This document shows, piece after piece, positions 12,961 through 33,672 of a stretch of 64,000 nt of DNA. Source of the DNA: Chloroflexus aurantiacus J-10-fl (lineage in GTDB: Bacteria > Chloroflexota > Chloroflexia > Chloroflexales > Chloroflexaceae). The DNA lies in assembly GCF_000018865.1 (NCBI RefSeq), contig NC_010175.1, positions 1 through 64,000 on the forward strand, read 5' to 3'. The notes below the pieces were generated by a model. It made no database searches and was not told where the DNA came from. It saw only the letters and a program-made list of their open reading frames with translations. How positions within the stretch are numbered: position 1 is the stretch's first letter; each line of letters begins with the position of its first letter. The position numbers and the translations under genes are program-made.

Positions 12961-13968
12961 ATGGCTGTGCGCGTAGGGATCAACGGATTCGGGCGGATTG
13001 GACGGCTCGCGCTGCGGGCGGCGTGGGCATGGCCCGAACTCGATATCGTCCATATTAACGAGGTTGGCGGTGATGCCGCTACCGCAGCGCATCTCCTCAG
13101 CTTTGATTCGACGCAGGGGCGATGGTCGGTTGAGGTGCACGGTGAAGGCAATCAGTTGCTGATCGATGACAAAACGGTTGGTTACAGTCAGATTCGCGAT
13201 CCCGGTGCTGTGCCATGGGCAGATGCCGGCGTTGACATTGTGCTTGAAGCAACCGGCAAGTTCCGCACTGCGGAGCAACTGGCGGCCTATTTCAGCGCTG
13301 GGGTGAAGAAGGTGATTGTGGCGGCGCCGGTAAAGGGTGAGGCGCTGAATGTGGTTATGGGGGTGAACGATCACTGGTATGAGCCAGATCGCCATCACCT
13401 GCTGACGGCCGCCTCGTGTACGACCAACTGTCTGGCACCGATTGTGAAAGTAATCCACGAAGGGATTGGCATTCGCCATGGCATGATCACAACCATTCAC
13501 AGCTCGACTAACACCCAAACCGTGCACGACCGTCCACACAAAGATTTGCGACGGGCACGAGCGGCTAGTCTGTCACTCATCCCCACTACGACCGGCTCGG
13601 CAACCGCTATCGGTCTGATCTTTCCTGAATTGCAGGGTAAACTCGACGGACAGGCGGTGCGGGTACCGTTGCTGAACGCATCGCTCACCGATTGCGTCTT
13701 CGAGGTACGTCGTCCGACAACTGTTGCCGAGGTGAACGGATTGTTACAGGCAGCGGCAGAGGGTGCGCTGAAGGGGATTCTCGCCTATGAGACGCGCCCG
13801 CTGGTGTCGATTGACTTCCTCGGCAACCCACATTCGGCGATTGTCGACTCGCTGTGCACGATGGTCACCAACGAGACGCAGGTGAAGATTTACGCCTGGT
13901 ACGACAATGAATGGGGATACGCCAATCGGTATGTGGAATTAGCGCGAAAGGTTGCCCTGCTCTTATGA
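12961..13968 (+). CDS. gap: Glyceraldehyde-3-phosphate dehydrogenase of the arsenate (ArsJ) operon
   Basis: Glycolytic-type GAPDH, 335 aa. The ATG at 12961 follows AGGAG by six bases; the open frame extending upstream to 12559 runs through repeats and is not coding. Motifs are the NAD fold [11 protein letters not shown], the catalytic Cys153 in SCTTNCLAP, the phosphate-site [10 protein letters not shown] and the C-terminal [11 protein letters not shown]. The stop overlaps the start of arsJ as ATGA. In characterised arsenic operons the GAPDH next to ArsJ uses arsenate in place of phosphate and makes 1-arseno-3-phosphoglycerate for export. That role is inferred from the linkage; it could also serve in central metabolism. 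Confidence 0.9.
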
Positions 13969-15263
13969 AAACAACGCCTTCCACTGAGGCATCGGCGACC
14001 ATGACCCAACAGCGCGCCGACCGCCGTAACTATGTGCTGGTAACAATCGCCTACTGGGCCGATACGCTCACCGATGGCGCGATTCGGATGCTGGTGTTGT
14101 TTTACTTTGCTCAGCTCGGCTATTCGCCGTTTGCGGTAGCCTCGCTCTTTCTGTTCTACGAAATTTTTGGGGTGATTACTAATCTCTTCGGTGGCTATAT
14201 CGGTGCGCGCTTTGGTCTCAAGCTGACGCTGTTTCTCGGCCTGGCAACCCAACTGGTTGCACTGAGTATGCTGGCTTTTGCTCCACCTTCACTGCTGGTT
14301 GTGCCATACGTGATGGCGGCGCAGGCATTGTCGGGGATCGCCAAAGACCTGACCAAGATGTCGTCGAAGAGTGCGGTGAAGCTGGTGGCCGGCACCGGCG
14401 AAGGTCAGCTTTACCGCTGGGTCAGTGTGTTGACCGGATCGAAGAATGCGATCAAGGGACTGGGCTTCTTTGTCGGTGCACTGTTGCTCAGTCTATTCGG
14501 CTTCCAGACTGCTCTGATCATGCTGGCAGTGCTGGTGCTGACGGCCCTGGTTGGTGCGGTGAGCACAATCAGTGGCGACCTGGGTGTTGCCAACAAGAAA
14601 GCCAAATTCAAGCAGATTTTCTCGCCGAACCGGGCGGTCAATCTGCTGGCGGCAGCTCGCATTTTTCTCTTCGGGGCGCGCGATGTCTGGTTTGTGGTCG
14701 GATTGCCGGTCTTCTTCATCACCGTTTTAGGCTGGGATTTCTGGCTGGCGGGTGGCTTTATGGCTGCCTGGACTATCGGCTACGGCTTTGTGCAGGCTTC
14801 CACACCGGCCCTCATTCGGCGGCGTATCGCCAATGCCCAGGCTCCGGACGGACGTACCGCTATGTGGCTGGCCTTCGCACTGGCAGCCTTCCCGGCAGGG
14901 ATTGCCATCACACTGCATGCGGGTCTGATCCCAACGCTGAGTGTAGTTGGTGGTCTGCTCGCCTTTGGGATCATCTTTGCCCTGAATTCGGCTGTACACA
15001 GCTACCTGATCCTGGCTTACGCCGACGATGCCAAAGTTGCGATGAACGTTGGCTTCTACTATATGGCAAATGCCCTGGGGCGCCTCACCGGCACAGTTCT
15101 CTCTGGCGCACTCTACCAGTGGGGAATGCAGAGCAATCCATTTGGTGGCCTGATCGCATGCCTGTGGGCATCGGCTGGTTTCATTTTAATCGCCGGTTTG
15201 TTGTCGATCCGCTTACCAACGCCAACGCGCACGGTCGTCGGCACGTGGAAGGTAGAGGAATAA
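13965..15263 (+). CDS. arsJ: Organoarsenical efflux permease ArsJ (MFS)
   Basis: Major-facilitator permease that exports 1-arseno-3-phosphoglycerate made by the adjacent GAPDH, giving arsenate resistance. The ATG at 13965 overlaps the gap stop by four bases (ATGA), so translation is probably coupled; the product is 432 aa with about 12 hydrophobic segments. Family hallmarks are [20 protein letters not shown] near the N-terminus, [20 protein letters not shown], and the conserved [20 protein letters not shown] loop. The gene pair order gap-arsJ is the one found in arsenic islands. No promoter is obvious beyond that of gap. Confidence 0.92.
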
Positions 15264-16676: not shown

Positions 16677-16692
16677 ATTCAAGAAATTGAAT
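16677..16692. promoter_or_regulatory. Candidate ArsR operator 1
   Basis: Perfect dyad ATTCAA-GAAA-TTGAAT directly before, and adjoining, the ATG at 16693 of arsR. The architecture CAA-4-TTG matches the second dyad at 17360-17379 before the permease gene. This fits autorepression by an ArsR/SmtB dimer. Confidence 0.6.
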
Positions 16693-17049
16693 ATGATAAG
16701 AGCTATGAAAACAACAACGACCGTCAAACAGGCACGCCTGTTCAAGGCCCTCATGCATCCGGTTCGTATTCAGATCCTCGACATTCTGCGCGAGGGTGAG
16801 GCATGTGTCTGCCACATTGAAGCCGTGCTTGGGCTACGGCAGGCGTATGTGTCGCAGCAACTGGCTGTGTTACGTAAAGCAGGTCTGATCCGAGATCGGC
16901 GCGAAGGGCCGAACATCTACTATCGCATCGGGCATCGCGATGTATTCACTATTCTCGATGTGGCCCGCACCCTGGTAGGTGAGGATGAACTGGTGACGCC
17001 GACGACGGTACGTTGTTCATGTCCGCGTTGTACGGCACCAACCGCATAG
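16693..17049 (+). CDS. arsR: ArsR/SmtB-family metalloregulator
   Basis: Winged-helix repressor that releases DNA on binding arsenite or a related thiophilic metal ion. The 118-aa product (from ATG 16693; ATG 16705 is an alternative and neither has a good ribosome binding site) has FKALMHPVRIQILDILREGE, then the metal-binding ACVCHIEAVLG. CVC matches the ArsR alpha-3 thiolate pair, though the third Cys of the E. coli type (CVCDLC) is replaced by Glu. The recognition helix is AYVSQQLAVLRKAGLI. The C-terminus adds a Cys cluster RCSCPRC that may bind metal as well. First gene of arsR-trx, closed by a terminator at 17321. Confidence 0.9.
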   Translation: MIRAMKTTTTVKQARLFKALMHPVRIQILDILREGEACVCHIEAVLGLRQAYVSQQLAVLRKAGLIRDRREGPNIYYRIGHRDVFTILDVARTLVGEDELVTPTTVRCSCPRCTAPTA

Positions 17050-17071: not shown

Positions 17072-17305
17072 ATGGTCAGCGTTAAAGTCCTGGGGCCGGG
17101 ATGCGCCAATTGTCGCAAGCTGGAAGAGCGTGTACGGCATGTCATTCGCCAGCATCAACTGGAAGCCGAGATCGAAAAGGTTACCGATTACGCGCAGATT
17201 ATGCGCTGGAACGTGATGCGCACGCCGGGACTGGTGGTAAACGATGTCCTGGTCGCCGCCGGACGCATTCCCTCGGAAGAGGAGATTGCCGGCTGGTTGA
17301 GATAA
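17072..17305 (+). CDS. Small thioredoxin-like redox protein (thioredoxin_3 type)
   Basis: A 77-aa single-domain thioredoxin fold. The start ATG follows AGGAG by eight bases. The redox motif is CANC in KVLGPGCANCRKLEERV, followed by a TPGLVVNDVLVAAGR strand containing the cis-proline. Such mini-thioredoxins are regularly encoded between an ArsR regulator and a PF03773 permease. A role in reducing or delivering the permease substrate is inferred from that linkage. It lies 22 bases after arsR. Confidence 0.85.
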   Translation: MVSVKVLGPGCANCRKLEERVRHVIRQHQLEAEIEKVTDYAQIMRWNVMRTPGLVVNDVLVAAGRIPSEEEIAGWLR

Positions 17306-17397: not shown

Positions 17398-18450
17398 ATG
17401 GCGCAAACCATTTCACCAACCGCTGATCGTCGTCCCGCCTGGCGGATATGGCTGCTGGTAGTTGGCGGAGCCGCAGTCTGGTTGATTGCGTATAACCTGA
17501 TACAACCGCTGGCAAACTGGCTCACCTTCCAGGTCATTGGTCTACAAGAGGGTTCCCATCTGGGTGAGGCAGTTGCCTTCTTTCTGTACGATGTGCCGAA
17601 AATCCTTTTACTCTTGAGCGGTATGATCTTTCTGATCAGCACGATTCGCTCGTTCTTCAGCCCGGAACGCACCCGCGAGTTACTGGGAGGTAAGCGGGAA
17701 GGGGTTGGTAATATCCTGGCAGCCGGTCTCGGTGTACTGACTCCATTTTGTTCATGTTCGGCGGTACCGCTCTTCATCGGTTTTGTTGAGGCCGGCATTC
17801 CGCTTGGGGTCACCTTTTCCTTTCTGATTGCCGCGCCAATGGTGAACGAGGTGGCGCTGGTCATGCTCTTCGGCTTGTTTGGCTGGCAGGTCGCTCTCCT
17901 CTATCTGGTAGCCGGGATGAGTGTCGCTATTCTGGCCGGGATTGTGATCGGACGCCTGCATCTCGAACGGTATGTCGAAGACTTTGTCTGGCAGATTAAA
18001 GGGGGCAACGGTACGGTTGCGCTGGCTACGCCAACGTGGCCAGACCGGTTTGCCATAGCCTGGGCGAACACACGTGAGATTGTCGGGAAGGTCTGGCTCT
18101 TCGTCGTGCTTGGGATTGCGGTTGGAGCCGGCATTCACGGTTACGTTCCCGAAGATGCGCTGGCCGGCATCCTGGGCCGTGAAGCGTGGTGGTCGGTGCC
18201 GATGGGAGTTTTGCTTGGCGTTCCGCTGTACTCGAACGCCGCCGGTGTCATTCCGGTCGTCCAGGCCCTGATGGCGAAAGGGGCCGCTCTCGGCACGGTG
18301 CTGGCCTTTATGATGTCTGTAGTAGCGCTAAGCCTGCCAGAGCTGATCATTTTGCGACGTGTGCTCAAGCTACCGCTGATCGCGACGTTTGTCGGTGTCG
18401 TGGCCAGCGGGATCATCCTGGTCGGCTATCTGTTCAACCTGATGATGTGA
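17398..18450 (+). CDS. ArsP-family permease (PF03773/DUF318)
   Basis: Polytopic membrane permease of the family that includes ArsP, an exporter of trivalent organoarsenicals; other members handle unknown substrates. The ATG at 17398 follows GGAG by nine bases (ATG 17383 is an alternative); the product is 350 aa. The family signature TPFCSCSAVPLFIGFVEAG lies near residue 117, with paired cysteines proposed to act in substrate transfer. It is repeated in looser form as VPLYSNAAGVIPVVQALMAKG in the second half. About eight to ten hydrophobic helices are visible. Its place behind arsR-trx supports arsenic or metalloid export; no arsM methylase is seen nearby. Confidence 0.85.
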   Translation: MAQTISPTADRRPAWRIWLLVVGGAAVWLIAYNLIQPLANWLTFQVIGLQEGSHLGEAVAFFLYDVPKILLLLSGMIFLISTIRSFFSPERTRELLGGKREGVGNILAAGLGVLTPFCSCSAVPLFIGFVEAGIPLGVTFSFLIAAPMVNEVALVMLFGLFGWQVALLYLVAGMSVAILAGIVIGRLHLERYVEDFVWQIKGGNGTVALATPTWPDRFAIAWANTREIVGKVWLFVVLGIAVGAGIHGYVPEDALAGILGREAWWSVPMGVLLGVPLYSNAAGVIPVVQALMAKGAALGTVLAFMMSVVALSLPELIILRRVLKLPLIATFVGVVASGIILVGYLFNLMM

Positions 18451-20117: not shown

Positions 20118-20214
20118 TTGCCTCCTCCATAGGTTCATCTACGATACGATGATAATACCATATGTTTTCGGATAGGTTCTTAATACGCAGTGCTGCTCAA
20201 AAGTACGTCACAAC

Positions 20215-20499
<285 letters not shown>

Positions 20500-20500
<1 letters not shown>

Positions 20501-20915
20501 CAACGGGGAGCTATACCACACCCACAGCTCGGACAAGTTAACGCTTGCAGATAGCAATAGCCCCTTAACCACAGTGCACTGCGCACATCTCAAAACGGTC
20601 AACCATCGGTGTTTACTGCGGTGTAAGGGCTGCGTAGTACCCTATTGCACCGAGTTTGAACATGAGCCTCCGTTGTTTTAGCACGTAAAGAAGCGCCGCG
20701 AATTGCTCGTCTCCGGCATGATCGTGTATAATCCATAGCATTGTCGCAATCGCTGTATATCATCAACGTCTGATTGTACCTGTTTCCTGATCGGGGCGAC
20801 GTCGCAGGCTTGCACCTGTGCGCTGTACATCTGGCGCGAACAGGACGGTGATACTGCGTTTCGTTGCTGATGATACGTGTTTCGCATACCAGTGTAAACA
20901 GGGAGGACTCTCAGT
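20500..20915. other. Gene-free stretch
   Basis: A 109-aa frame covers the first part, but only its beginning (the pseudogene tail) resembles a protein; the rest has no recognised pattern. Nothing else is seen up to the methyltransferase ribosome binding site GGGAGG at 20900. Confidence 0.5.
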
Positions 20916-21719
20916 ATGGAACCGTCTGGCGCAGTCGAACTATCCCCTTCGGAAACGCCAAATGCCGCCCGTATCTACAGTTATACTCTGGGCGGTTCGT
21001 ACTATCTGCCGGTTGACAGGGCAGCCGCGGAGTACATGTTCTCGCTCGTGCCTTCCACCCCAAAATGGGTGCGTATGCTGCGCAGTTTTCTCCAGCACGC
21101 CGCCCGTCGTCTTTGGGCGGAAGGATTGACCCATTTCATCGACTTCGCTTCTGGTCTGCCGACCGACGATCACATTCATCACGTGCTTCCAGATGCGCGT
21201 GTGGTTTATTCCGACCTGGATCCCGAAACGTACAACCTGGCGCGGCAACTGGTTGAACATCTTCCGAATGTATTGTATTTGAGGCATGATGTGCGCGAGG
21301 CACGGGTGCTGCTCGATTCGCCGGAGGTGCAGAATTTTCTGGGAGGTGAGCGGCGGGTGGCATTCGGGTTGAACGGTATCACCGTCTTTCTCTCTCCTGA
21401 CGAGATTTCACACCTCTTCCATGATCTCTATGAGTGGGCAGCGCCAGGCTCCCGTCTTTACATCACCTACGAAACCAAAATGCCAGGGCTAATGACTCCG
21501 CGTATGGAACAGTTTATCGACATGTTCCGTCAGGCAGGATCACCCTTCTGGCTCTATTCGCTAGAGGAGTGCATCGCGCTCAGTCGACCGTGGCAGATCC
21601 CACCAACGGGATTAATGCCGTTGCACGAGTTCCTTGGGCTTCCCGCCGACTACATCACCGAATCGGATCAGGAAGGCGTCGGGTTGCAGTTCTACGCTGC
21701 GATCCTTACCAAGCCATAG
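20916..21719 (+). CDS. S-adenosylmethionine-dependent methyltransferase, DUF574/Methyltransf_19 family
   Basis: A 267-aa protein with the N-terminal family signature NAARIYSYTLGGSYYLPVDR, a class I SAM-binding fold (FIDFASGLPTDDHIHHV as motif I, VVYSDLDPETYNLARQL as the acidic motif II loop) and LNGITVFLSPDEISHLFHDL further on. The GGGAGG site before ATG 20916 supports the start. This family is abundant in actinomycetes and scattered in Chloroflexi; substrates are generally unknown. It is the only intact gene between 18.9 and 23.5 kb, an island of decayed mobile elements, so it could be acquired cargo. Confidence 0.85.
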   Translation: MEPSGAVELSPSETPNAARIYSYTLGGSYYLPVDRAAAEYMFSLVPSTPKWVRMLRSFLQHAARRLWAEGLTHFIDFASGLPTDDHIHHVLPDARVVYSDLDPETYNLARQLVEHLPNVLYLRHDVREARVLLDSPEVQNFLGGERRVAFGLNGITVFLSPDEISHLFHDLYEWAAPGSRLYITYETKMPGLMTPRMEQFIDMFRQAGSPFWLYSLEECIALSRPWQIPPTGLMPLHEFLGLPADYITESDQEGVGLQFYAAILTKP

Positions 21720-21935
21720 AGACGTTCATATCGGGCGAGCAGGGTGGAGGAAGCGCGGTCGTCACAGGGAAGAGTTTCTCGGCTGGTTCCTGCGTGCCAT
21801 TTCCTGTTCCAGGAGTGATGACACCTTATCTCCCCCTTCTCCCATTCAAGAACAGACAGAACATATGAACCAATGCAACTTCTGTAGCATCGAAACGCCC
21901 CAGCAAAGACAGATGCTCCCCTCTCCCCCCAGCGG

Positions 21936-23100
21936 CTATGCATTACCCATAACTCGGACCCACGTGCGGGTTGTGGTAATCGTATGAGGAGCAATCAACC
22001 AGGAGGCAGCGTGACACGACGATGCCATCGTGGACTGCGCACGATGCGATACGCTCGATGAGGTGATACCCGCAGGAATCGGCGTCTAATTCGCCTAGTC
22101 GAGGCGGTGGCTGCGCAGCCGACCGCCAGCGTGCCGCAGGCGTGCGTGAGCCGGGCAACCACCAACGGGGCCTATCGGCTATGGCGTTCGGATTGGGGTA
22201 GTCCAGCGGCGATTCGGGCGACGCATTGACACGTGACGACGGAACGTGTGCGAGCACATCCGATGATTCTGGTCATCCAGGTACGACTGAGCTGAACGTC
22301 ACCCAACATCCGACTACCCAAGGTCTGGGGCTGTTAGACAATGCAAGCCAGGTATCTGTGGCAGGCCATCCGCCAGCATCCGGCGTGAGGGCACGTTACC
22401 ATTCCGATGCAGCGCACAGATAACCAGCCACTACGTCAGGCACCATCACCGTGCGCACGATACCGCTGACCATCCTTCCCCTGCGACAGCAGTGGCAGCG
22501 GTCCTCGTTATCGTCGCTTCCGCTGCACAGTATCCAGGCAGAAGAGGAGAGTCTACCTCCTGAGGCAACCCCTGTGTGCTGGTTGTCGATCACCACGCTA
22601 CCGGTCACCACACTAGCCGAGGCATGCCAGTGCATCCTCTGGTACCGTCATCGGTGGGTGGTAGAGCGGTATCACGTCGTCCTGAAAAGCGGGTGTCGGC
22701 TGGATGAACTGCAACTGGAAGACGCAGACCGGATTCAGCGAGACCTGGCGACCTAGTGCATCGTCGCGTGACGCTTGCTGTGGCTCACATATGAGGCACG
22801 GCAGAATCCCACTGCCTCGTGTTAGATCGCCCTGGATCCGCACGAGTGGCAAGCACGCTCTTTTATCCACCACACTACCCCGATCCTATCGGCCACGCCA
22901 CCGACACTGAGTGACGCGGTACGATGGATTGCCCACCTGGGCGGGTTCCTGGGGCGAATACACGATGGAGAGCCGGGCGTGACGACGATCTGGCACGGGC
23001 TGCCGGGCTGCGTCGTCTGCACTACATCGCCGATCGCTGGCAACTCCTGTACGCAACCCCACCTGCCGCTGGTGACACGTGACATATGAGTAATGCATAG
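21936..23100 (+). mobile_element. Decayed IS4-family (Tn5/IS50-like) insertion sequence, element B
   Basis: Ends are CTATGCATTACCCATAA (21936-21952) and the inverted ATGAGTAATGCATAG (23086-23100); the flanks AGCGG and CCGCT extend the inverted repeat. The 1165-bp interior encodes on the plus strand the remains of a Tn5-type transposase (see pseudogene entry). Elements A and C have the same ends and are probably internally deleted or replaced relatives. Confidence 0.75.
22079..23085 (+). pseudogene. Tn5-like (IS4 family) transposase remnant
   Basis: Pieces in several frames line up with Tn5/IS50-type transposases. RLIRLVEAVAAQPTASVPQA comes first, then ATTNGAYRLWRSDWGSPAAI (here followed by a stop codon), then RAHPMILVIQ, then TTELNVTQHPTTQGLGLLDN (catalytic Asp region, with a frameshift). 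The YREK-like block WYRHRWVVERYHVVLKSGCR and LDELQLEDADRIQRDLAT carries the catalytic Glu and ends at a TAG. The C-terminal LGGFLGRIHDGEPGVTTIWH and LHYIADRWQLLYATPP follow. Multiple stops and shifts make it non-functional. Confidence 0.8.
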
Positions 23101-23545
23101 CCCGCTAGGGGCGGGGATCACCAATACCGGATAGCATTCGCTGTCGTGCTCTGGTTCAAGGTTGCACGACTCCGTTTGCAGCAGGTACGGAGGGCGGTAG
23201 CAGGTAAGAGCCAGCCAGCGACTCGCGCTCCCAGCGCTTTCAGATGAGCCAGTCAGCGGCGCATACTCCCACCGCTCCCAGATTTGATATTGCCGCTCGC
23301 GCCCACGAGCGCCAGATTCGATCACACAGCATCTGGGTGTCAGCACTGCCGCACTCTCTGGCGGGCAGAACAGCACGGATGGGGCAGGTTTCAGCACCGC
23401 GCTCGCTATCTTCAGGCAGACCTTCCCGAAGATTATCAACGATGCATGTGCCGAATGTCCACCAACAGTTACGATCTCTTTCTGTATCAGGCAAGAGGCA
23501 AATGATATGATCGCTTTGTCACAAAGAATGGCATAGTGACGAGTT
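23101..23545. other. Gene-free stretch upstream of the sensor operon
   Basis: Frames of 80-200 aa exist on both strands but show biased, low-complexity composition and match no pattern I recognise. The lipoprotein gene at 23546 has no strong ribosome binding site (only GACGAG, about seven bases upstream), and no clear promoter is visible. Confidence 0.45.
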
Positions 23546-24463
23546 ATGAAATATTATCTGTTCATCATCTTTATCATACTGCTTGGGATCAGTGGTTGCC
23601 AGCGCACGACAACCTCTCTCATCCAGCTTGACGATCTGCAACCACTGCCAATGCCCACGCCGGTAACGTCACCACCCCTGCGGGTATCGGTGGCATCGGT
23701 CATTTCAGCCCAGGGAACGGTGCAGAGCTACCAACCGTTGCTCGATTACCTGAGCGCCCGGCTTGGCCGTGAAGTAACCTTGATTCAGCGCCGTACCTAC
23801 ACCGAAACGAACGAGTTGATCGGGCGCAATGAAGTCGATGTTGCGTTTGTCTGCACCAGTGCCTACATTGATGGACGTGACCGCTACGGGATGAGTCTGC
23901 TGGTTGCTCCCCAGGTCAACGGTGAAACAACGTACCATTCGCTCCTGATTGTACCGACGGATAGCCCGGCCCGTTCTATGGCCGATCTGCGTGGTAAGGT
24001 CTTTGCCTTTACTGATCCAACGTCGTTTAGCGGGCGCGTCTACCCAACGGCCCTGGTGCAAGAGCTGGGTGATAGTCCAGAGAGCTTTTTCCAGGATACG
24101 TTCTTCACCTACAGTCACGACGCGGCAATCGAAGCAGTGGCTAACGGCCTCGCCGATGGTGCCGCCGTTGATAGTCTGGTGTTCCACTTTGCCCTATCCC
24201 GGCATCCCGAACTACGTGAGCAGGTAAAAGTGATCCACACCTCACCGCCGTTCGGCATTCCACCGGTTGTGGTTGGACCGGGAGTCCGGCCTCAGTTGCG
24301 TGCTGAGCTGCAAAATATTCTGCTGGGCATGGCTGACGATCCTTCACCCCTGGCCCAAACTGCCTTGGAGTCGTTAGGCATTGATCGCTTCGTCATGATT
24401 GACGATGCAGCCTACGCCAGTGCCCGGCTACTACGCTCACAAGTAGGACCGGTATCGCCATGA
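23546..24463 (+). CDS. PhnD-like periplasmic-binding lipoprotein, sensor component
   Basis: Product of 305 aa with a lipoprotein signal (MKYYLFIIFIILLGISGC, lipobox Cys18), so it is anchored at the outer face of the membrane. The body reads as a PhnD/phosphonate-type solute-binding fold: LRVSVASVISAQGTVQSYQP, LLDYLSARLGREV, VDVAFVCTSAYIDGR, DLRGKVFAFTDPTSFSGR. Its stop overlaps the start of the histidine kinase (ATGA), so it belongs to a three-component sensor. In enteric TtrS the same PhnD-like domain is fused to the kinase and senses tetrathionate. Here the two parts are separate proteins. The ligand is inferred from the adjacent ttr-like genes. Confidence 0.85.
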   Translation: MKYYLFIIFIILLGISGCQRTTTSLIQLDDLQPLPMPTPVTSPPLRVSVASVISAQGTVQSYQPLLDYLSARLGREVTLIQRRTYTETNELIGRNEVDVAFVCTSAYIDGRDRYGMSLLVAPQVNGETTYHSLLIVPTDSPARSMADLRGKVFAFTDPTSFSGRVYPTALVQELGDSPESFFQDTFFTYSHDAAIEAVANGLADGAAVDSLVFHFALSRHPELREQVKVIHTSPPFGIPPVVVGPGVRPQLRAELQNILLGMADDPSPLAQTALESLGIDRFVMIDDAAYASARLLRSQVGPVSP

Positions 24464-25935
24464 ACGCAGGGTTCTTGCCACATCAGGTTGTACGATGGGC
24501 GACAACGCTATGGCAGATTGTCGGCTCGGTAAATATTCGCGCCAAAATTCTGGGTATTGTACTGGGACTGGTAGTCTTGATGGGTGTGGCTGCTACCATC
24601 GAAGTACGGACACTGCTGGAGCATACCCTCACTGTGCAAACGCACGAACGGTCAATTGCCATTGCCCGCGACGTTGCCGCCCGCTCTACCGATTTGGTAC
24701 TGATGCGCGATTATTACAGACTCTTCCGCTTGTTGCAAGACACTCAGGAGAATAACCCTGATCTACGCTACGCTTTCATCATTGATTCAGAGGGCACGAT
24801 TGTCGCTCACACTTTTGGCAGCGGCTTTCCGGTCGGTTTGCGCGATGCCAACACGGTAACAGCGCAAGAACATCATCGCAGTGTGCTGCTGGCAACGAAT
24901 GAAGGTGATATTTGGGATACGGCGGTGCCCATGTTCGACGGTCGTGCCGGTATCGCCCGAGTCGGCCTCTCGCTGGCCGCCCGTGAACAGACAGTCGCTG
25001 CCGTCACCGGGCAGTTGTTAATCACCACCATTATGGCGGCAGCTATCGGCATCACTGCCGCAGCGTTTCTAACCTGGCTTCTGACCAGGCCCATCTTACA
25101 ACTGGTAGCGCTCACTAAGGCGGTTGCGCTCGGTGATTTCAGTCAGCGTGCCCGACGTTGGGCCAACGATGAAATTGGGCAGCTCACCGATGCGTTTAAC
25201 GCGATGAGTGAGGCGCTGGCGCAGGCTGAGCGTGAACGGGCCGAACGTGAACATCTACGTGCTCAGTATGTCACGCAAATTATTACCGCTCAGGAAGAGG
25301 AACGCAAGCGGATCGCCCGTGAACTGCACGATAGCACCAGTCAGGCTCTGACCTCATTGCTGGTCGGCTTACGCTCACTCGCCGACCGCCACCGCTCGCC
25401 GGAGATTGCGCAACAGGTAGATGATCTGCGGAGCATCGTCGGGCAAATTCTCAACGATCTCCATGCACTGGCCCGGCAACTACGGCCAAGCGTGCTTGAC
25501 GATCTGGGATTGGCGGCTGCCTTGCAACGGTATGTAGCCGAGTGTCGTGCTCGCAGTGGTTTGATCATTGATCTGGCACTACCGGGGTTAGATGATTTCC
25601 GCCTCGATCCGGTGGTAGAGACAGCACTATACCGGATTGTACAAGAGGGATTAACGAACATCATCCGACATGCCCACGCGAGCACCGCCAGCGTCGTGAT
25701 TGAACGTCGTGCTGATCGAGTGCGTGCGATCATTGAGGATGACGGATGTGGTTTTGATCCGAATGCCCTGCACGGTGACGGTCATCTGGGATTGAACGGC
25801 ATCCGTGAACGGGCAGCGCTTTTGAACGGCCAGCTCATCATCGAGTCGTCTCCCGGTAGTGGCACCACGTTGTACGTGGAAATTCCTTTAACGACCAGGC
25901 ATGAGGAGTGCTATGAGCAGCATTCTCTTAGTTGA
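24460..25935 (+). CDS. NarX-type sensor histidine kinase (TtrS-like partner)
   Basis: A 491-aa membrane kinase. A first helix (about 27-48) and a second (about 185-210) enclose an extracytoplasmic sensor of about 135 residues with LRYAFIIDSEGTIVAHTFG, a single Cache/PAS-like fold. A HAMP segment (TRPILQLVALTKAVALGDFS) and a coiled coil follow. The HisKA_3 box EEERKRIARELHDSTSQALT carries the phosphorylated His, and the HATPase has DDGCGFDP and GHLGLNGIRERA. It overlaps the lipoprotein gene by four bases and the response-regulator gene by 23, so the three are translated together. Confidence 0.92.
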   Translation: MNAGFLPHQVVRWATTLWQIVGSVNIRAKILGIVLGLVVLMGVAATIEVRTLLEHTLTVQTHERSIAIARDVAARSTDLVLMRDYYRLFRLLQDTQENNPDLRYAFIIDSEGTIVAHTFGSGFPVGLRDANTVTAQEHHRSVLLATNEGDIWDTAVPMFDGRAGIARVGLSLAAREQTVAAVTGQLLITTIMAAAIGITAAAFLTWLLTRPILQLVALTKAVALGDFSQRARRWANDEIGQLTDAFNAMSEALAQAERERAEREHLRAQYVTQIITAQEEERKRIARELHDSTSQALTSLLVGLRSLADRHRSPEIAQQVDDLRSIVGQILNDLHALARQLRPSVLDDLGLAAALQRYVAECRARSGLIIDLALPGLDDFRLDPVVETALYRIVQEGLTNIIRHAHASTASVVIERRADRVRAIIEDDGCGFDPNALHGDGHLGLNGIRERAALLNGQLIIESSPGSGTTLYVEIPLTTRHEECYEQHSLS

Positions 25936-26554
25936 TGATCACGCTGTGCTGCGTGCCGGTTTACGGCTTCTGCTCGACGGGCAACCCGATCTGCGCGTTA
26001 TCGGCGAGGCGGAAGATGTACGGACAGCCGTGGTGCAGGCCACTACTCTGCAGCCCGACCTGATCCTGCTCGATCTCAGCCTGACCGGGAGCAGTGGTCT
26101 GGCAGCCATTCCAGCCTTACGCGCAGTAGCTCCGCACAGTCGCATCCTGGTGCTTACCATGCACGATGACGAAGGGTACGTGCGACAGGCTCTGGCTGCC
26201 GGTGCCAACGGCTATGTTCTGAAGCGTGCCGCTGACGCCGAACTGATTGCGGCGATTCGGGCAGTTCTACGCGGGGAACTTTACATCCATCCAGCGCTAA
26301 CCCGTCAGTTACTAGAGGATTTGCTTCCACAGACACCGGCTCTGAATCCCTGGGAAAGTCTGAGCGAGCGCGAACGCGAGGTTCTCTTGCTGGTCGCCCG
26401 TGGCTACACTGCCGCCGAGATTGCCGAACAATTGAGCCTCAGTCCCAAAACGGTCGAAACCTATCGCACCCGTGGCATGGAGAAACTTGGCCTGCGCTCG
26501 CGCGCCGCGCTGGTGCAGTACGCACTCAACCATAACCTGTTGACACCGACCTGA
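25913..26554 (+). CDS. NarL/FixJ-family response regulator (TtrR-like)
   Basis: A 213-aa two-domain regulator. The ATG at 25913 follows AGGAG by four bases, inside the kinase gene. The receiver domain has the acidic pair LLVDDHAVLRAG, phospho-acceptor Asp in PDLILLDLSLTG, and conserved Lys in NGYVLKRA. The LuxR-type HTH is LSEREREVLLLVARGYTAAE, then IAEQLSLSPKTVETY. It ends the sensor operon. The next gene, 158 bases downstream, starts the ttr-like operon, which is the likely target. Confidence 0.93.
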   Translation: MSSILLVDDHAVLRAGLRLLLDGQPDLRVIGEAEDVRTAVVQATTLQPDLILLDLSLTGSSGLAAIPALRAVAPHSRILVLTMHDDEGYVRQALAAGANGYVLKRAADAELIAAIRAVLRGELYIHPALTRQLLEDLLPQTPALNPWESLSEREREVLLLVARGYTAAEIAEQLSLSPKTVETYRTRGMEKLGLRSRAALVQYALNHNLLTPT

Positions 26555-26712
26555 TCCGGTTGCAAGCGGACAATGGCTGTCGGGAAAATCCTGACACAAG
26601 CCGATCAATAACCTGACTTTTCCTGCTACCGGTGGCACCGGCACAGATGTAAAGTGGGATTAGCGGGAATGCCGTAGATAAGCAATCCGCATTAGTACAA
26701 GGAGCCTGGACT

Positions 26713-27669
26713 ATGACCCGGCAACCAACTATCCCCTTAACCCCGGTAAGCCGCAGAGGTTTACTCGGTGCACTGGTAGCCGGCGCCGGTGCCCTCGCTG
26801 CGGCTTCAGTACAGGCAGGTCTCCCTGCCAGCACCGGAAAATCAGCCGACACTATCGATGTGCTTTCGCCTGAAGAAGCCCTGGCCGCCTACGAAGCCGA
26901 GATTGCTCGCCTCCGTGCAACCAAAGTGAGCGGTACACCCCTCGATCATCTGGAGCGGATGCGGGCCGAACTGCTGCGGGCACTCGCCAAACCGGTCGCC
27001 GAACGCCGTTGGGTGATGGTGATTGATCTCCGCGCCTGCGTCGGTTGTCACGGTTGCACCATCGCCTGCGTGGCCGAGAACAAACTGCCACCCGGCGTGG
27101 TCTACCGACCGGTGATCGACGAAGAGATCGGTCGCTACCCCAATGTCACGCGCCGCTTCATTCCCCGACCCTGTATGCAATGCGACAATCCGCCCTGCAC
27201 CGGGGTTTGCCCGGTCTCGGCCACCTTCACCAACGAGCATGGCGTCGTCGAAGTAGACTACGAGCAGTGCATTGGCTGCCGTGCCTGTATCGCTGCGTGT
27301 CCGTATGGTGCGCGCACCTTCGATTTCGGATACACCTACACCGCCGACACCACCGACCCTGGCGTCATGTTTGGCGCCGATCAGGCAGCGACCTACGAGA
27401 CGGTCACCACCTTCGAGTACGGCAAAGCCCACGCACGGCGCAACCTCCACGACTCGCCGGTTGGGAACGTGCGTAAATGCCACTTCTGCATGCACCGGGT
27501 ACTCAACGGTCAACTCCCGGCCTGTGTCACGACCTGCATCGGGCGCGCCACCTTCTTCGGTGATGCCAATGATCCCGATAGCCTGGTTAGCGAACTGATT
27601 GCCAAACCCAATGTCATGCGGTTGAAAGAAGACCTCGGCACCGAGCCGCGTGTCTACTATTTGCAGTGA
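26713..27669 (+). CDS. Tat-exported 4x[4Fe-4S] ferredoxin-like subunit, TtrB-like
   Basis: Electron-transfer subunit of a molybdoenzyme complex on the outer face of the membrane. The 318-aa product starts at ATG 26713 after AAGGAG and has a twin-arginine signal ([19 protein letters not shown]). Sixteen cysteines fall in four groups (109-119, 154-166, 186-196, 256-275), as in DmsB/PsrB/TtrB proteins: [35 protein letters not shown] and [20 protein letters not shown]. The gene order iron-sulfur, NrfD, molybdopterin subunit equals ttrB-ttrC-ttrA of Salmonella, and the PhnD-like sensor upstream fits. Polysulfide or another sulfur oxyanion remains possible. Confidence 0.85.
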
Positions 27670-27680
27670 GGAGCAGACCT

Positions 27681-28826
27681 ATGCTTAAGCGACTCCTCTA
27701 TCTCGCCGGCACCCTTGGCCTGCTCGTCGGCCTGTGGGGATTGTACGACCGCCTTGTCTACGGTCATATGCATGCCAATTACGGCTCATACGTTGTCTGG
27801 GGGCTGTGGGTAGCGCTGTATATGTTCTTCGCCGGGGTAGCAACCGGAGCCTTTATGCTGGCAACCCTCGATCTGCTCTTCGAGCTGCCGATCTTCCGTG
27901 GGAGCGGACGCATGGCACTCTGGGGATCGCTGGTGGCAATGCCGGCAGGGCTGGTAGCAATCGGCCTTGACCTCGGTCACATGACGCGCATCTGGAAAGT
28001 CTATCTCCAGCCCAATTTCGGTTCGGTTATGGCGCAACTGGTCTGGGGCTACACCATCTTTTTGGGTATCGTTGTGATCAGCCTCTGGCTCAGTTTACGG
28101 CCACAACCCTCACGCTGGTTAAAGCCGGTAATGGCAATTGGCCTTATTCTCGCCATCTTCCTCAGTGGTGGGATCGGTGCCCTGCTCGGTGTCAACCAAA
28201 ACCGGATCAGTTGGCACGTCAGCAACTTACCGGCGCAGTTCCCCGTCTTCAACCTCACCTCTGGTGTGGCGCTAATGCTGATCGCCATCGGCTGGTTCGG
28301 CCCACTCCGCGATCCACGCCGCTCGCAACAGTTACGCATTCTCAGCCTGGCGATGGTCGTGCTTTTGCTGGTGAAAGGCTACTACCTCTGGAGCGACGTC
28401 TCGCAAGCCCTCTACCAGAACAGTAGCCACGGCGCAGCAGCGATCAATCTCGTCCTGTTTGGCCCCTACGGCTGGGCATTCTGGCTGTTGCAACTCGGAC
28501 TCGGCATGCTGATCCCGCTCATTGTGCTGACTATGCCGGTTGGACAGCGCGGCTTTGCTGCCGGTTTGATGGGTGTATGTGTGCTGATCGGCCTGGCGGT
28601 AGCGCGTGCCAACATCATCTTCCCGGCTCTCAGCCTGCCCGAACTGCAAGGTCTGGGTGAAGCGTTCCACGGCCCACATCTGAGCTTCACCTACAGCCCC
28701 AGTTTGATGGAATGGGCGGTTACGGCGGGTATCGTCGGTGCTGCAACCATCGGGTTCCTGCTCGGCACAGATCGATTACCGCTCTTCAATCGTCTACCAA
28801 CGGAAGCAAGTAGCGCTGCCGATTAG
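27681..28826 (+). CDS. NrfD/PsrC-family quinol-linked membrane subunit, TtrC-like
   Basis: Polytopic membrane anchor that passes electrons between the quinone pool and the iron-sulfur subunit. The ATG at 27681 follows GAGGAG (27668-27673), which overlaps the stop of the preceding gene; a GTG at 27666 is less likely. The 381-aa product has about nine to ten helices. Family features are NYGSYVVWGLWVALYMFFAG near the N-terminus with GVATGAFMLATL, and conserved polar and charged residues such as DLGHMTRIWK in the third helix region. Spacing to both neighbours is short, so it is part of the ttrBCA-like operon. Confidence 0.85.
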   Translation: MLKRLLYLAGTLGLLVGLWGLYDRLVYGHMHANYGSYVVWGLWVALYMFFAGVATGAFMLATLDLLFELPIFRGSGRMALWGSLVAMPAGLVAIGLDLGHMTRIWKVYLQPNFGSVMAQLVWGYTIFLGIVVISLWLSLRPQPSRWLKPVMAIGLILAIFLSGGIGALLGVNQNRISWHVSNLPAQFPVFNLTSGVALMLIAIGWFGPLRDPRRSQQLRILSLAMVVLLLVKGYYLWSDVSQALYQNSSHGAAAINLVLFGPYGWAFWLLQLGLGMLIPLIVLTMPVGQRGFAAGLMGVCVLIGLAVARANIIFPALSLPELQGLGEAFHGPHLSFTYSPSLMEWAVTAGIVGAATIGFLLGTDRLPLFNRLPTEASSAAD

Positions 28827-28878
28827 ATGACACGTATCATTGGTCGTTATCCCCTGCCCCAACGACAGGAGTGTTGAT

Positions 28879-31800
28879 ATGAAACGGCAACCTGAAACAT
28901 CCACTCGCACCGACCAAAGCATGAGTCGACGCGACTTTCTCAAGACTTCGGCTCTGCTCGGTGGCGGCGCTGCGCTCCTCGGCTTTGGCCCGCTGGCCGG
29001 CCTGGCTCGCGGCGAAGCACCGGCACTCGAACTGCCGCTCGTCGATGCGGCCAACTCTATCCAGACGGTCTGTTTGCAATGCAATACCGGCTGCGGTCTC
29101 AAAGTCAAACTGATCGATGGCGTCGCAGCCAAGCTGGAAGGTAATCCGTACAGCCCGTGGACGATGGAACCGCCATTGCCTTTCAGCACCCCAATTAGCG
29201 CCAGCGGCTCCATTGACGGCGCGCTCTGCCCGAAAGGTCATGCCGGCATCCAGACCGCCTACGACCCGTACCGACTGATGCGGGTGCTCAAACGCAAACC
29301 GGGCACACCGCGCGGTGGCGGCCAATGGATCACCATTGACTTCGACCAGGCAATTACTGAGATTGTGGAAGGTGGCGATCTGTTCGGCGAAGGGCCGGTA
29401 GAAGGGCTGCGCGCGCTCTATGCCCTCAAGGACGCCAAACTGGCCAAAGAGATGGCAAACGCGGTCAATGCAATTTTAGCCGCCAGGCCGGAAGAGAAAC
29501 CGGCCCTCGTCGAGCAATTCAAACGCGACTTTGCCGACCATCTCGATGTACTGATCGATCCTGACCATCCCGATCTGGGGCCAAAGAACAATCAATTCGC
29601 CTTCGTTTGGGGACGGTTGAAGAACGGTCGTGGCGACCTCGTGCAACGCTTCGTCAAGAAAGGCTTCGGTTCGGTCAACGCCAACGGCCACACCACCGTT
29701 TGCCAGGGATCGCTCTATTTCACCGGCAAAGCGATGAGCGAGCAGTTCGATCCCAAGACCGGCAAATTCAGTGGCGGCCAGAAATTCTACTGGCAGGCCG
29801 ATTTGGGTAATGCCGAATTCGTCATCTTTGTCGGTACCAACCACTTTGAAGCCAACTACGGCCCCACTCCACAATCACCACGCATTACGCAAGGCGTGAT
29901 CAACAGTCGGCTGCGGTATGTCGTACTTGATCCACGCTTGAGCAAACTGGCCAGCAAAGCCTGGAAATGGCTACCAATCAAACCGGGCACCGACGCCGCC
30001 TTCGCAATGGCAATGATCCGCTGGATCATCGAACAGCAGCGCTACAACACTCGTTTCCTCGCCGCTGCCAACAAAGCCGCCGCTGCCGCCAACGGCGAAC
30101 CGAGCTGGACCAATGCCACCTGGCTGGTGAAGGTCAAAGACGGCGTACCGGGCAAGTTCCTCCGTGCCAGTGAGATTGGATTGACGACTGTCGTTGAAGA
30201 GACCGATGCCGAAGGGAAGAAGACGAAAGCGTATGTGACGGCTGATGGCACGCGCTTCAGCTTCGATCCTTTCGTTGCCCTGGTCAACGGCGTACCGACC
30301 CCCATCGATCCGAACGATCCCGAAGCCGCCCCGGTGATTGGTGATCTCCTGGTCGATACTGAACTGAATGGCATCGCGGTGAAGAGTAGCTTGCAGGTGA
30401 TCTACGAGGCAGCCAGCACGCATACCATTGAGGAATGGGCGGCGATTGCCGATGTGAAAGCGGAAGACATCATCGAGATCGCTTACGAATTTACCAGCCA
30501 CGGAACGCGCGCAGTGGCCGACATTCACCGGGGCCCATCGCAACACACCAACGGCTTCTACACCAATTTCGCCTTCTACACCCTCAATGCCCTGATCGGC
30601 AACTTCGACCACCGCGGCGGGTTGATCAAGCCTACGACCTACGACCGACTGGGGACGAAGGCAAAGGGGCCATTTGAGGTTGAGAAGATGACGAACGGTG
30701 CCAACGTCCCGTTTGGCATCGACCTGCTGCGCACGAATACCGCCTACGAAAAATCAACGCTATTCAATGGCTATCCGGCGCGCCGACCATGGTTCCCGCT
30801 GGCGACCGATGTCTACCAGGAAGACATCCCCTCGATGGGTGATGCCTATCCGTACCAGATCAAAGTCGCCATGTTCTACATGTCGGCCATCAATTACGCC
30901 TTGCCGGCGGCGCAGACGACCATCGAGATACTGGCCGACCCGAAGAAAATCCCGCTGATCATCACCAGCGACGTCATGGTTGGTGAAACCAGCACCTATG
31001 CCGACTACATCTTCCCCGACCTGAGCTTCCTTGAGCGCTGGGAATTCCACGGCTCACACCCCAGCGTCCCGTGGAAGGTGGAAAACATTCGCCAGCCTGC
31101 GATCAGCTTACCGAACTGGCCAACCGTCAAGGTCTTCGGCGAAGAGATTCCGCTCAGCTTCGAGGCACTGGTGCTCGCGATTGCCGAGCGGCTCGAACTA
31201 CCTGGCTTCGGCCCGAACGGTTTTGGCGAAGGCATCCCCTTCACCCGGCCCGAACACCTCTACCTGAAACTGGCGGCCAACATCGCCTTCGGCGAGAAGG
31301 AAGACGGCAGCGATGGCGTACCTCCAGCCGACTATGCCGAATTAGAGGTCTTCCGCCGGGCACGCCGCTTCCTGCCGCCGAGCGTGTTTGATGAAGCCAA
31401 ATGGCGTGCCGCTATCGGCAATGATGAACAGCTCTGGCGACAAACGGTCTACGTTCTCAACCGTGGTGGCCGCTACCAGGCTTACGAGAAGGGCTGGAAG
31501 GGTGATCTGGCCGGCAACCCATACGCCAAACAGATCAACCTGTATCAAGAGAAGACGGCAACCACCATCAACTCCATGACCGGCGATCATCTGATCGGCT
31601 ACCCGACCTACATCCCGGCTGGTTTGGCTGCCGACGGCACACCAATCGTTGATGAAGGTTACGACCTGCACCTGGTCACCTACAAAGAGGCAATGATGGC
31701 GAAGGCGCGTGGCATTGCCGACTACTGGCTCCTCGCCCTAATGCCCGAAAACGCCATCCTGATCAATCGCCTCGATGCCGAACGTCTCGGTTTACGCAAC

Positions 31801-32139
31801 GGTGATCGGGTACGCATCAGCTCGGCCAGCAACCCCGACGGGGTCTGGGATTTGCAGAACGGTACGCGCAAACCGATGATCGGCAAAGTGAAGGTGATCG
31901 AGGGCATCCGCCCTGGTGTCATCTCCTTCCCGCTCGGTTGGGGCCACTTCGCCAGCGGCGCCAGCGACATCGTTATTGACGGCGTCACCATCCCCGCCGA
32001 CCCGCGCCGGGCTGCCGGCATTCACGCCAATGCTGCCATGCGCGTTGATCCAGTACTGGGCAATGTAACCCTGAGCGACCTGGTCGGCGGCAGTGCCGTC
32101 TTCTACGACACGAAGGTGAAACTGGAGCGAGTTGGCTAA
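28879..32139 (+). CDS. Molybdopterin oxidoreductase catalytic subunit, tetrathionate-reductase-like (TtrA)
   Basis: Large (1086 aa) Tat-exported molybdoenzyme of the DMSO-reductase superfamily. The ATG at 28879 follows AGGAG by seven bases; the Tat motif SRRDFLK is at residues 16-22. A [4Fe-4S] site CLQCNTGC (65-72) is completed by Cys117 in GALCPKGHAG. The likely Mo-ligand cysteine is in HTTVCQGSLYF. Molybdopterin-binding signatures include YADYIFPDLSFLERWE and the C-terminal dinucleotide-binding domain (LNRLDAERLGLRNGDRV-like INRLDAERLGLRNGDRVRI). TtrA is unusually long in its family (about 1000 aa), which fits, and so does the operon order. The substrate could be tetrathionate, polysulfide or another oxyanion; the PhnD-like sensor favours tetrathionate. 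Confidence 0.8.
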   Translation: MKRQPETSTRTDQSMSRRDFLKTSALLGGGAALLGFGPLAGLARGEAPALELPLVDAANSIQTVCLQCNTGCGLKVKLIDGVAAKLEGNPYSPWTMEPPLPFSTPISASGSIDGALCPKGHAGIQTAYDPYRLMRVLKRKPGTPRGGGQWITIDFDQAITEIVEGGDLFGEGPVEGLRALYALKDAKLAKEMANAVNAILAARPEEKPALVEQFKRDFADHLDVLIDPDHPDLGPKNNQFAFVWGRLKNGRGDLVQRFVKKGFGSVNANGHTTVCQGSLYFTGKAMSEQFDPKTGKFSGGQKFYWQADLGNAEFVIFVGTNHFEANYGPTPQSPRITQGVINSRLRYVVLDPRLSKLASKAWKWLPIKPGTDAAFAMAMIRWIIEQQRYNTRFLAAANKAAAAANGEPSWTNATWLVKVKDGVPGKFLRASEIGLTTVVEETDAEGKKTKAYVTADGTRFSFDPFVALVNGVPTPIDPNDPEAAPVIGDLLVDTELNGIAVKSSLQVIYEAASTHTIEEWAAIADVKAEDIIEIAYEFTSHGTRAVADIHRGPSQHTNGFYTNFAFYTLNALIGNFDHRGGLIKPTTYDRLGTKAKGPFEVEKMTNGANVPFGIDLLRTNTAYEKSTLFNGYPARRPWFPLATDVYQEDIPSMGDAYPYQIKVAMFYMSAINYALPAAQTTIEILADPKKIPLIITSDVMVGETSTYADYIFPDLSFLERWEFHGSHPSVPWKVENIRQPAISLPNWPTVKVFGEEIPLSFEALVLAIAERLELPGFGPNGFGEGIPFTRPEHLYLKLAANIAFGEKEDGSDGVPPADYAELEVFRRARRFLPPSVFDEAKWRAAIGNDEQLWRQTVYVLNRGGRYQAYEKGWKGDLAGNPYAKQINLYQEKTATTINSMTGDHLIGYPTYIPAGLAADGTPIVDEGYDLHLVTYKEAMMAKARGIADYWLLALMPENAILINRLDAERLGLRNGDRVRISSASNPDGVWDLQNGTRKPMIGKVKVIEGIRPGVISFPLGWGHFASGASDIVIDGVTIPADPRRAAGIHANAAMRVDPVLGNVTLSDLVGGSAVFYDTKVKLERVG

Positions 32140-32476: not shown

Positions 32477-32699
32477 TCATACATTCACACTCAACAACTC
32501 AGAACAGGATGCCTGCTCGCTCATTCAGACAACAGGTGAAGCGCATTGTACTGCGCAAGGAACGAGAAGTCATTGCAGATACCATCACAAGGATGCGCGA
32601 CACCGGACGGCGCAATGCGGTATCTATGCCCGTTCTGCATCGCCAGTATTTGCAACTGACATAGAACGTCAAACTGGAATATACACCTGGGAGGCTATC

Positions 32700-33029
32700 A
32701 TGAGTCAACTGCCCGAAGCGTACCGTACCTTTTTGCAAGACTACCCAACGGTAGCCGGCGTGTACGAACAACTGGGTGCAGCAGCAGCCGAGGCCGGCCC
32801 ACTCGACGCCAAAACCCGCGAACTGGTTAAACTGGCAATGGCAGCCGCTCTCGGCTCAGAGGGTGCCGTCCATTCCCACGTGCATCGTGCGCTGGCAGCA
32901 GGCGCAACTGCGGCAGAGATTGAACACACCCTGATCCTGGGCGTAACCACACTTGGCTTCCCAACAATGATGATGGCACTGCGTTGGGCACGTACCGCAC
33001 TACACCAGGCTACATCACCACAAAGCTAG
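32700..33029 (+). CDS. AhpD/carboxymuconolactone decarboxylase-like protein
   Basis: A 109-aa all-alpha protein of the CMD family. ATG 32700 follows GGGAGG by five bases. It has the family helices LDAKTRELVKLAMAAALGSE and AAEIEHTLILGVTTLGFPTM. The peroxidatic CXXC of true AhpD is missing: the corresponding stretch reads GAVHSHVHRALAAGAT, with two His in place of Cys, so alkyl-hydroperoxidase activity is unlikely. The same short type with GAVxSHVxRAL occurs next to molybdoenzyme genes elsewhere (recollection, not checked). It precedes the FmdE-like gene by 13 bases, with which it forms an operon. Confidence 0.8.
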   Translation: MSQLPEAYRTFLQDYPTVAGVYEQLGAAAAEAGPLDAKTRELVKLAMAAALGSEGAVHSHVHRALAAGATAAEIEHTLILGVTTLGFPTMMMALRWARTALHQATSPQS

Positions 33030-33042
33030 AGGAGGAACGACC

Positions 33043-33672
33043 GTGTCGGTTGATGATCTGATCGATACCACATCGCTGGAACTGCTCGTTGCCCCTGCCC
33101 CGTTAGCCGACTTTCTCCGCCAGTCATCGGCAATGCACCGTCATCTCTGCCCACGTCAGGTGCTTGGTGCCCGCATGGGCATGTATGCTGGTGAACTGCT
33201 GGGTCTAACCCTGCCTCAAAAGAACAAACGCCTCTACACCTTTGTCGAAACCGACGGCTGTTTTGCCGACGGCGTAAGCGTAACGACCGGTTGCTGGTTG
33301 GGGCGCCGCACCATGCGGCTGATGGACGAAGGCAAAGTCGCGGCAACCTTCGTAGACACCCAAACCGGGCAGGCATTCCGCATTGCGCCGCGCCCCAATG
33401 TGCGCGATCTGGCCCGGCAGTACGCACCCAACGCCCGCAGCCGCTGGCATGCGTATCTAATCGCCTATCAATTGATGCCACTAACCGATCTCCTCATCGC
33501 CCAACCGATCACCCTGACCGTTGATCTCAAGGCCATCATCAGCCGCAACGGTTTACGGACTACCTGCGACCACTGCGGCGAAGAGATCATCAACGCCCGC
33601 GAAGTAATCCGCGATGGTCAAACCCTGTGTCGGACGTGTGGGGGGGAGGGGTATTACACGATTACCGGGTAA
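33043..33672 (+). CDS. FmdE-family protein with C-terminal zinc ribbon
   Basis: A 209-aa protein with a GTG start behind GAGGAGG. The N-terminal FmdE domain shows the conserved HRHLCPRQVLGARMGMYAGE, followed by ETDGCFADGVSVTTGCWLGR with conserved cysteines; the C-terminus has a zinc ribbon CDHCGEEI...CRTCGG. FmdE is named for formylmethanofuran dehydrogenase subunit E, but many bacterial members stand beside molybdenum or tungsten enzymes with no methanogenic function. A link to the ttrA-like molybdoenzyme (cofactor handling or metal delivery) is inferred from proximity only. Confidence 0.85.
   Translation: MSVDDLIDTTSLELLVAPAPLADFLRQSSAMHRHLCPRQVLGARMGMYAGELLGLTLPQKNKRLYTFVETDGCFADGVSVTTGCWLGRRTMRLMDEGKVAATFVDTQTGQAFRIAPRPNVRDLARQYAPNARSRWHAYLIAYQLMPLTDLLIAQPITLTVDLKAIISRNGLRTTCDHCGEEIINAREVIRDGQTLCRTCGGEGYYTITG

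Follow-up and report, generated by a model that had tools for sequence, protein, structure and literature searches.

The window analysed here is the first 64,000 nucleotides (64 kb) of the single-contig, 5,258,541-base genome of Chloroflexus aurantiacus J-10-fl (NCBI RefSeq assembly GCF_000018865.1, contig NC_010175.1, forward strand). Between positions 23546 and 32139 the window carries a putative respiratory locus of the tetrathionate reductase (Ttr) type, consisting of six open reading frames (ORFs) designated X, S, R, B, C, and A, all of which lie on the + strand and were found to be uninterrupted in an ORF check. An earlier annotation made without database searches (the sequence-only reading) had placed six genes at these positions, and all six were confirmed. 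The genes and a palindrome located between R and B are listed below, with twin-arginine translocation (Tat) signals indicated.

23546..24463, + strand: X, periplasmic oxyanion-binding lipoprotein of the ArrX/AioX/ArxX type, putative sensor (305 amino acids, lipobox LGISGC)
24460..25935, + strand: S, membrane sensor histidine kinase (sCache_3_2, HAMP, HisKA_3, and HATPase_c domains)
25901..26554, + strand: R, LuxR/NarL-type response regulator (Response_reg and GerE domains)
26578..26596, + strand: candidate operator of R, palindrome TGTCGGG-AAAAT-CCTGACA, upstream of B
26713..27669, + strand: B, electron-transfer subunit of the four [4Fe-4S] type (Fer4 domains, Tat start SRRGLLGA)
27666..28826, + strand: C, NrfD-like membrane quinol-binding subunit (PF03916)
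28879..32139, + strand: A, catalytic subunit of the molybdo-bis(pyranopterin guanine dinucleotide) (Mo-bisPGD) type, Ttr superclade (1086 amino acids, Tat signal SRRDFLK)

The genes of the cluster are approximately 81-91% identical in other Chloroflexus genomes, which indicates that the six ORFs are maintained genes and not chance ORFs. A locus 89% identical to the Chloroflexus cluster was also located on a contig (L063, the same contig as G069) of a metagenome-assembled genome (MAG) labelled Roseiflexus, and this contig may be a misbinned Chloroflexus contig. An Rfam search of this DNA found no RNA element. The B-C-A gene order and the Tat signals on B and A had been recognized correctly in the sequence-only reading, and the two have been described in the literature as features of the Ttr clade (Duval 2008, PMC2500031).

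The domain scan of A returned Molybdopterin, Molydop_binding, and Fe4S4 domains, and the FS0 cysteines (C65, C68, C72, and C117) and the molybdenum (Mo) ligand (C275) were located in the protein. The B subunit is related to the NCBIfam families DsrO, TtrB, and ArrB and is 37% identical to TtrB of an Escherichia coli plasmid. The best NCBIfam model for A was TtrA, with a score of 485 bits that is far below the cut-off of 1750, and the ArrA model scored 121 bits against a cut-off of 1600. A phylogenetic tree of 41 rows, in which SrdA and Pyrobaculum sequences were not among the rows, was evaluated with ultrafast bootstrap (UFBoot) and SH-like approximate likelihood ratio test (SH-aLRT) supports; it superseded an earlier tree in which several reference rows were unreliable, with long branches that probably reflect wrongly chosen ORFs. 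The TtrA-like rows formed one 31-row clade (100/100) apart from ArrA/ArxA and from Psr/Phs. Within it, A was placed in a 23-row clade (100/99) that also contains Chloroflexota and Ignavibacteriales rows and the two TtrA homologs of Anaeromyxobacter PSR-1. The enteric TtrA sequences formed another clade (100/100), and a topology forcing A together with enteric TtrA was rejected by the approximately unbiased test (p-AU 4.9e-8). The motif around the Mo-ligating cysteine also differs, being NGHTTVCQGSLYF in A and GAHG[AS]YCGLAYR in enteric TtrA.

By its clade, its C275 ligand, and the B-C-A arrangement, A is a member of the TtrA/SrdA/alternative-arsenate-reductase superclade, as judged from sequence. 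The designation of A as a tetrathionate reductase in the sequence-only reading thus holds for the Mo-bisPGD type and for the superclade but fails for the grouping with enteric TtrA; the tree of the catalytic subunit that it had proposed as a check places A apart from Psr/Phs, inside the superclade, and outside the enteric clade. Two narrower identities were discarded, namely a true enteric tetrathionate reductase (by the rejected topology and the TtrA score) and a canonical ArrA or ArxA (by the separate clade and the ArrA score). Tetrathionate, selenate, and archaeal arsenate reductases have all been placed in the Ttr superclade (PMC7331816, PMC10100899), so membership in it does not by itself fix the substrate of A. 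Several members of the A clade from Ignavibacteriales and other phyla (L121, L113, L106, L107, L122, and L120) have B and A with no detectable adjoining NrfD-type C and likely use a different electron donor. A distant B-C-A set was found inside an arsRDABC operon on a Citrobacter arsenatis plasmid (L040:7013-11817); its A is 32% identical and sister to enteric TtrA.

The domain scan recognized the lipoprotein X as a binding protein of the phosphonate type. In a phmmer search, the top PDB match of X was ArrX of Chrysiogenes arsenatis (6x6b, E 2.9e-62), followed by AioX (E 4e-34). All seven AioX ligand residues (Y88, C106, Y131, S161, S163, H192, and D210 in AioX numbering) are kept in X as Y85, C103, Y130, S160, S162, H191, and D209 (string YCYSSHD), and they are also kept in X of 45/45 relatives, with T in place of S162 in some. 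In a 28-sequence alignment of X, pocket residues account for 6 of the 16 invariant columns. The corresponding columns of TtrS from an E. coli plasmid read L-N-I-A-G-A-P, with 0/7 in common with AioX, and the phosphite binder PtxB (YGYSSHS) lacks the Cys and the Asp. The AlphaFold2 model of X (predicted local distance difference test, pLDDT, 89) had ArrX as its best Foldseek match (41% identity; VIA Z 35.9, root-mean-square deviation 1.3, 251 residues aligned), and Foldseek ranks 1-11 were all ArrX and AioX structures, with PhnD structures close behind in VIA Z. The NCBIfam TtrS model matched X only partially as a profile (27 bits, cut-off 750). The best homologs of X on plasmids adjoin aio or arx genes and ars operons.

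On this evidence from sequence and fold, X is assigned to the ArrX/AioX/ArxX-type arsenic-oxyanion sensors. A separate lipoprotein does precede the kinase and the regulator, as had been described, but it is not a domain split off from TtrS, because ArrX is its closest relative by both sequence and fold, the full AioX ligand set is present in place of a TtrS-like pocket, and the TtrS score is weak; X belongs to a different sensor family. Isothermal titration calorimetry (ITC) has shown arsenite to be a ligand of AioX and of ArxX, and arsenate to be one of ArrX, which also binds phosphate weakly (Badilla 2018, PMC5908839).

The domains expected of a NarX-type kinase and a response regulator after the lipoprotein were found, in agreement with the sequence-only reading, and the kinase core of S is closest to the DesK/NarX type. 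The intergenic stretch between R and B is poorly conserved except for the element TTGTCRGGAAAAhCCTGACA and a downstream TTTTCCTGCTA element. All six Chloroflexus-type loci keep the palindrome in the R-B interval, and a match of at least 15/20 was found upstream of B in 29/43 loci with a sensor and in 8/40 loci where none was seen, compared with 0.4% in shuffled sequence. Several variants alter both half-sites in step, e.g. TTGTAGGG...CCCTACA, and the only exact match in the 5.26-Mb genome is that at 26578-26596. This conservation, the paired half-site changes, and the single exact match make the palindrome a good candidate, and likely the actual site, for the operator of R. Control of the distant aioBA genes by X-S-R was also considered and is unlikely, since no sensor gene lies near AioA and no palindrome match was found near aioA with up to 3 mismatches allowed.

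Linkage of the sensor to the enzyme was surveyed in 80 relatives, of which 35 had adequate flanks (at least 5.5 kb on both sides of the locus). A sensor gene lies beside B-C-A in 26/35 relatives with adequate flanks; across all 80, the number with a same-strand sensor gene upstream is also 26. Arsenic (ars) genes were detected in 15/44 of the relatives' loci of at least 15 kb and in 0/26 control stretches (Fisher p 5e-4), the controls being few (26) and non-random, namely the first contigs of some of these relatives' genomes. Two adjacent A genes were observed in L070, L077, and L123, and two X-S-R modules side by side in L127 and L135, which suggests paralogous systems with different ligands or substrates.

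In C. aurantiacus, a gapdh-arsJ pair, a MerR-type regulator, arsR, a thioredoxin gene, and an ArsP permease gene lie 5-11 kb upstream of the cluster, and two further genes follow A.

12961..13968, + strand: ArsJ-associated glyceraldehyde-3-phosphate dehydrogenase (GAPDH; NF033735, 552 bits, cut-off 450)
14025..15263, + strand: ArsJ organoarsenical efflux transporter of the major facilitator superfamily (NF033734, 554 bits, cut-off 400)
16687..17049, + strand: ArsR-family repressor (PF01022)
17072..17305, + strand: small redox protein, Thioredoxin_3 (PF13192)
17401..18450, + strand: ArsP_1-family permease, start approximate (PF03773, E 9e-73)
32544..33029, + strand: carboxymuconolactone-decarboxylase-like protein (PF02627), a recurrent but variable neighbour (17/80 relatives' loci)
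33043..33672, + strand: FmdE-like protein with a C-terminal zinc ribbon (PF02663), conserved downstream of A in Chloroflexota

The sequence-only reading had overlooked the arsenic genes (12.5-18.5 kb), the operator-like palindrome (26578-26596), and the FmdE-like gene that is conserved 3' of A. The longest GAPDH ORF begins approximately 400 bases 5' of the domain start, so that the pair spans 12559-15263. In other Chloroflexus genomes, the end of the ArsP permease gene is only about 2.2 kb from X, and the stretch 18500-23500 that separates the two in the window is therefore probably an insertion; it holds few good genes, among them one for an apparently unrelated Methyltransf_19 protein (20916-21719) and a short transposase-like ORF (approximately 22451-22756). 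In one of these other genomes (L050), genes for a TauE-type and an SBF-type transporter sit between ArsP and X, and two of them have arsJ at approximately 5 kb from the sensor gene. The FmdE-like gene was found no more than 1.8 kb 3' of A, on the same strand, for 25/63 A genes with room and in 0/26 control stretches. A TorD chaperone is encoded in other clusters of the Ttr or Arx type, and by analogy a maturation role of the FmdE-like protein may be guessed at.

The genome of C. aurantiacus also encodes an AioA-type arsenite oxidase (1025 bits, cut-off 359). Both A and X are present in 5/8 Chloroflexus genomes, and AioA is present in 4 of those 5 and in 0 of the other 3. The organism uses menaquinone (PMC3150298) and has been reported to use arsenite in light (PMC7331816); the genome paper mentions neither arsenic nor tetrathionate.

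The closest counterparts are the TtrA-type arsenate reductases proposed for Anaeromyxobacter PSR-1 and Melioribacter roseus, which share with Chloroflexus the A clade, a nearby ArrX-like sensor, and nearby ars genes. Papers citing the original study of PSR-1 (Muramatsu 2020) describe the organism as reducing arsenate and its TtrA homolog as possibly the As(V) reductase, this homolog lacking tetrathionate reductase activity (PMC9751629, PMC10149662). The PSR-1 genome was found to encode exactly two A homologs (57% and 53% identity to Chloroflexus A). The two share a contig and flank an ArrX-like gene, genes for ACR3, ArsC, and ArsD lie upstream, and the genome gave no match to the ArrA model at E 1e-30. 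In M. roseus, whose lineage stands in the tree via an Ignavibacteriales row, the ttr locus lies next to ArrTSR and arsRPCB (Gavrilov 2017, PMC5492636), and ttrA transcripts were up with arsenate, although not in a statistically clear manner, only the psr/phsA rise being clear (PMC5492636). The Chloroflexus locus differs in its contiguous X-S-R-B-C-A arrangement, its NarL-type regulator, a candidate operator that is conserved across Chloroflexota, and its FmdE neighbour, whereas the PSR-1 sensor gene lies between the two A copies on the opposite strand. The X family, the identical ligand set, and the X-S-R gene order are shared with the ArrXSR, AioXSR, and ArxXSR modules; in contrast, the Chloroflexus regulator is of the LuxR/NarL type where plasmid aio/arx modules use AioR or sigma-54-dependent regulators, and X-S-R serves a TtrA-clade enzyme instead of Arr, Arx, or Aio. 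Enteric TtrBCA/TtrSR agrees with the locus in B-C-A order, in the Tat signals of B and A, in an NrfD-type C, and in superclade, but its TtrA falls in another subclade and its TtrS carries a PhnD-type domain as a fusion, with no arsenic pocket. The archaeal arsenate reductase of Pyrobaculum aerophilum (PAE1263-1265) and the selenate reductase SrdBCA have been assigned to the same TtrA/SrdA/archaeal Arr lineage (Wells 2020).

The X family and ligand set, the X-S-R to B-C-A linkage, the palindrome, the clade of A, and the arsenic neighbourhood are features of the sequence, and the locus is read from them as probably an arsenate-induced menaquinol:arsenate reductase operon of the Ttr type. Arsenate respiration is favoured by the arsenic-type sensor and the adjoining arsenic-resistance genes. 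The anaerobic respiration in a phototroph that the sequence-only reading had suggested remains plausible, but for the same reasons arsenate is a likelier acceptor than the sulfur oxyanion it had named. Several observations weigh against arsenate. The superclade of A also includes tetrathionate and selenate reductases, and the PSR-1 and Ignavibacteriales enzymes, although in the larger clade of A, are not its sisters. About a quarter of the relatives with adequate flanks (9/35) have no nearby sensor, and 3/13 sensor-less relatives have a sensor elsewhere according to a genome-wide search. The arsJ genes and the B-C-A cluster are far apart in Chloroflexus genome G008, so their linkage is not obligatory. 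Finally, a Desulfocapsa MAG (L090) has an A that is 60% identical to that of Chloroflexus, and a Ttr-type complex is induced by thiosulfate disproportionation in Desulfolithobacter dissulfuricans (PMC9751629).

These last two observations, with the superclade membership, the B-C-A order, and the Tat signals on B and A, would fit a genuine tetrathionate or other sulfur-oxyanion reductase whose sensor responds to a sulfur oxyanion. That is an unlikely assignment, given the exclusion of A from the enteric TtrA clade, an X pocket of the arsenic type of which TtrS has nothing, the ars neighbourhood, and ITC experiments in which AioX, ArxX, and ArrX bound none of tetrathionate, thiosulfate, sulfate, and selenate (PMC5908839). 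An enzyme for another arsenic- or sulfur-related oxyanion, such as hot-spring thioarsenates, selenate, or antimonate, under an arsenic-type sensor has a slim chance at best; the clade is catalytically versatile, as the selenate reductase SrdA illustrates (PMC10100899), but ArrX bound arsenate and phosphate and not selenate in ITC (PMC5908839). It is very improbable that the complex instead oxidises arsenite and feeds the photosynthetic chain in the manner of an Arx-like arsenite:quinone oxidoreductase: AioX and ArxX sensors do serve arsenite oxidation (PMC5908839), and C. aurantiacus is a phototroph reported to use arsenite (PMC7331816), but A lies outside the ArxA/ArrA clade, the genome already has its AioA-type oxidase, and low-potential menaquinone would favour arsenate reduction.

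Under arsenate respiration, lipoprotein X would bind arsenate (possibly arsenite) outside the membrane and activate kinase S, which would phosphorylate R, and R would then bind the palindrome at 26578-26596 and switch on B-C-A. Electrons from menaquinol would pass to the NrfD-type C, through the Fe-S chain of B, and to the Mo centre of A, which would reduce arsenate to arsenite in the periplasm, while the neighbouring ars genes would deal with arsenic entering the cell. The AioA gene and the reported use of arsenite in light make a complete light-dark arsenic cycle possible. It is tentatively suggested, at somewhat less than even likelihood, that AioBA oxidises arsenite in light and that in darkness the Ttr-type complex, with an ArrX-type sensor, a NarL-type regulator, a conserved 7-5-7 operator, and a dedicated FmdE-type partner, uses the arsenate so formed for respiration.

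Arsenate reductases of the Ttr type are already known from the literature, as is an ArrX-like sensor next to one of them. The novel elements, as far as the searches reached, are the recognition of such a system in a phototrophic model organism, its conserved candidate operator, a likely FmdE partner, and a criterion based on sequence that separates arsenic from sulfur members of the family. The system is notable in a phototroph that also has an arsenite oxidase, and it predicts arsenate respiration in the dark for a model organism already reported to oxidise arsenite, which is of relevance to arsenic cycling in hot-spring mats. Because the routine annotation of such genes is tetrathionate reductase, arsenic respiration in Chloroflexota and several other phyla may be counted as part of the sulfur cycle, and the sensor pocket together with the operator would provide a simple sequence test for arsenic versus sulfur members.

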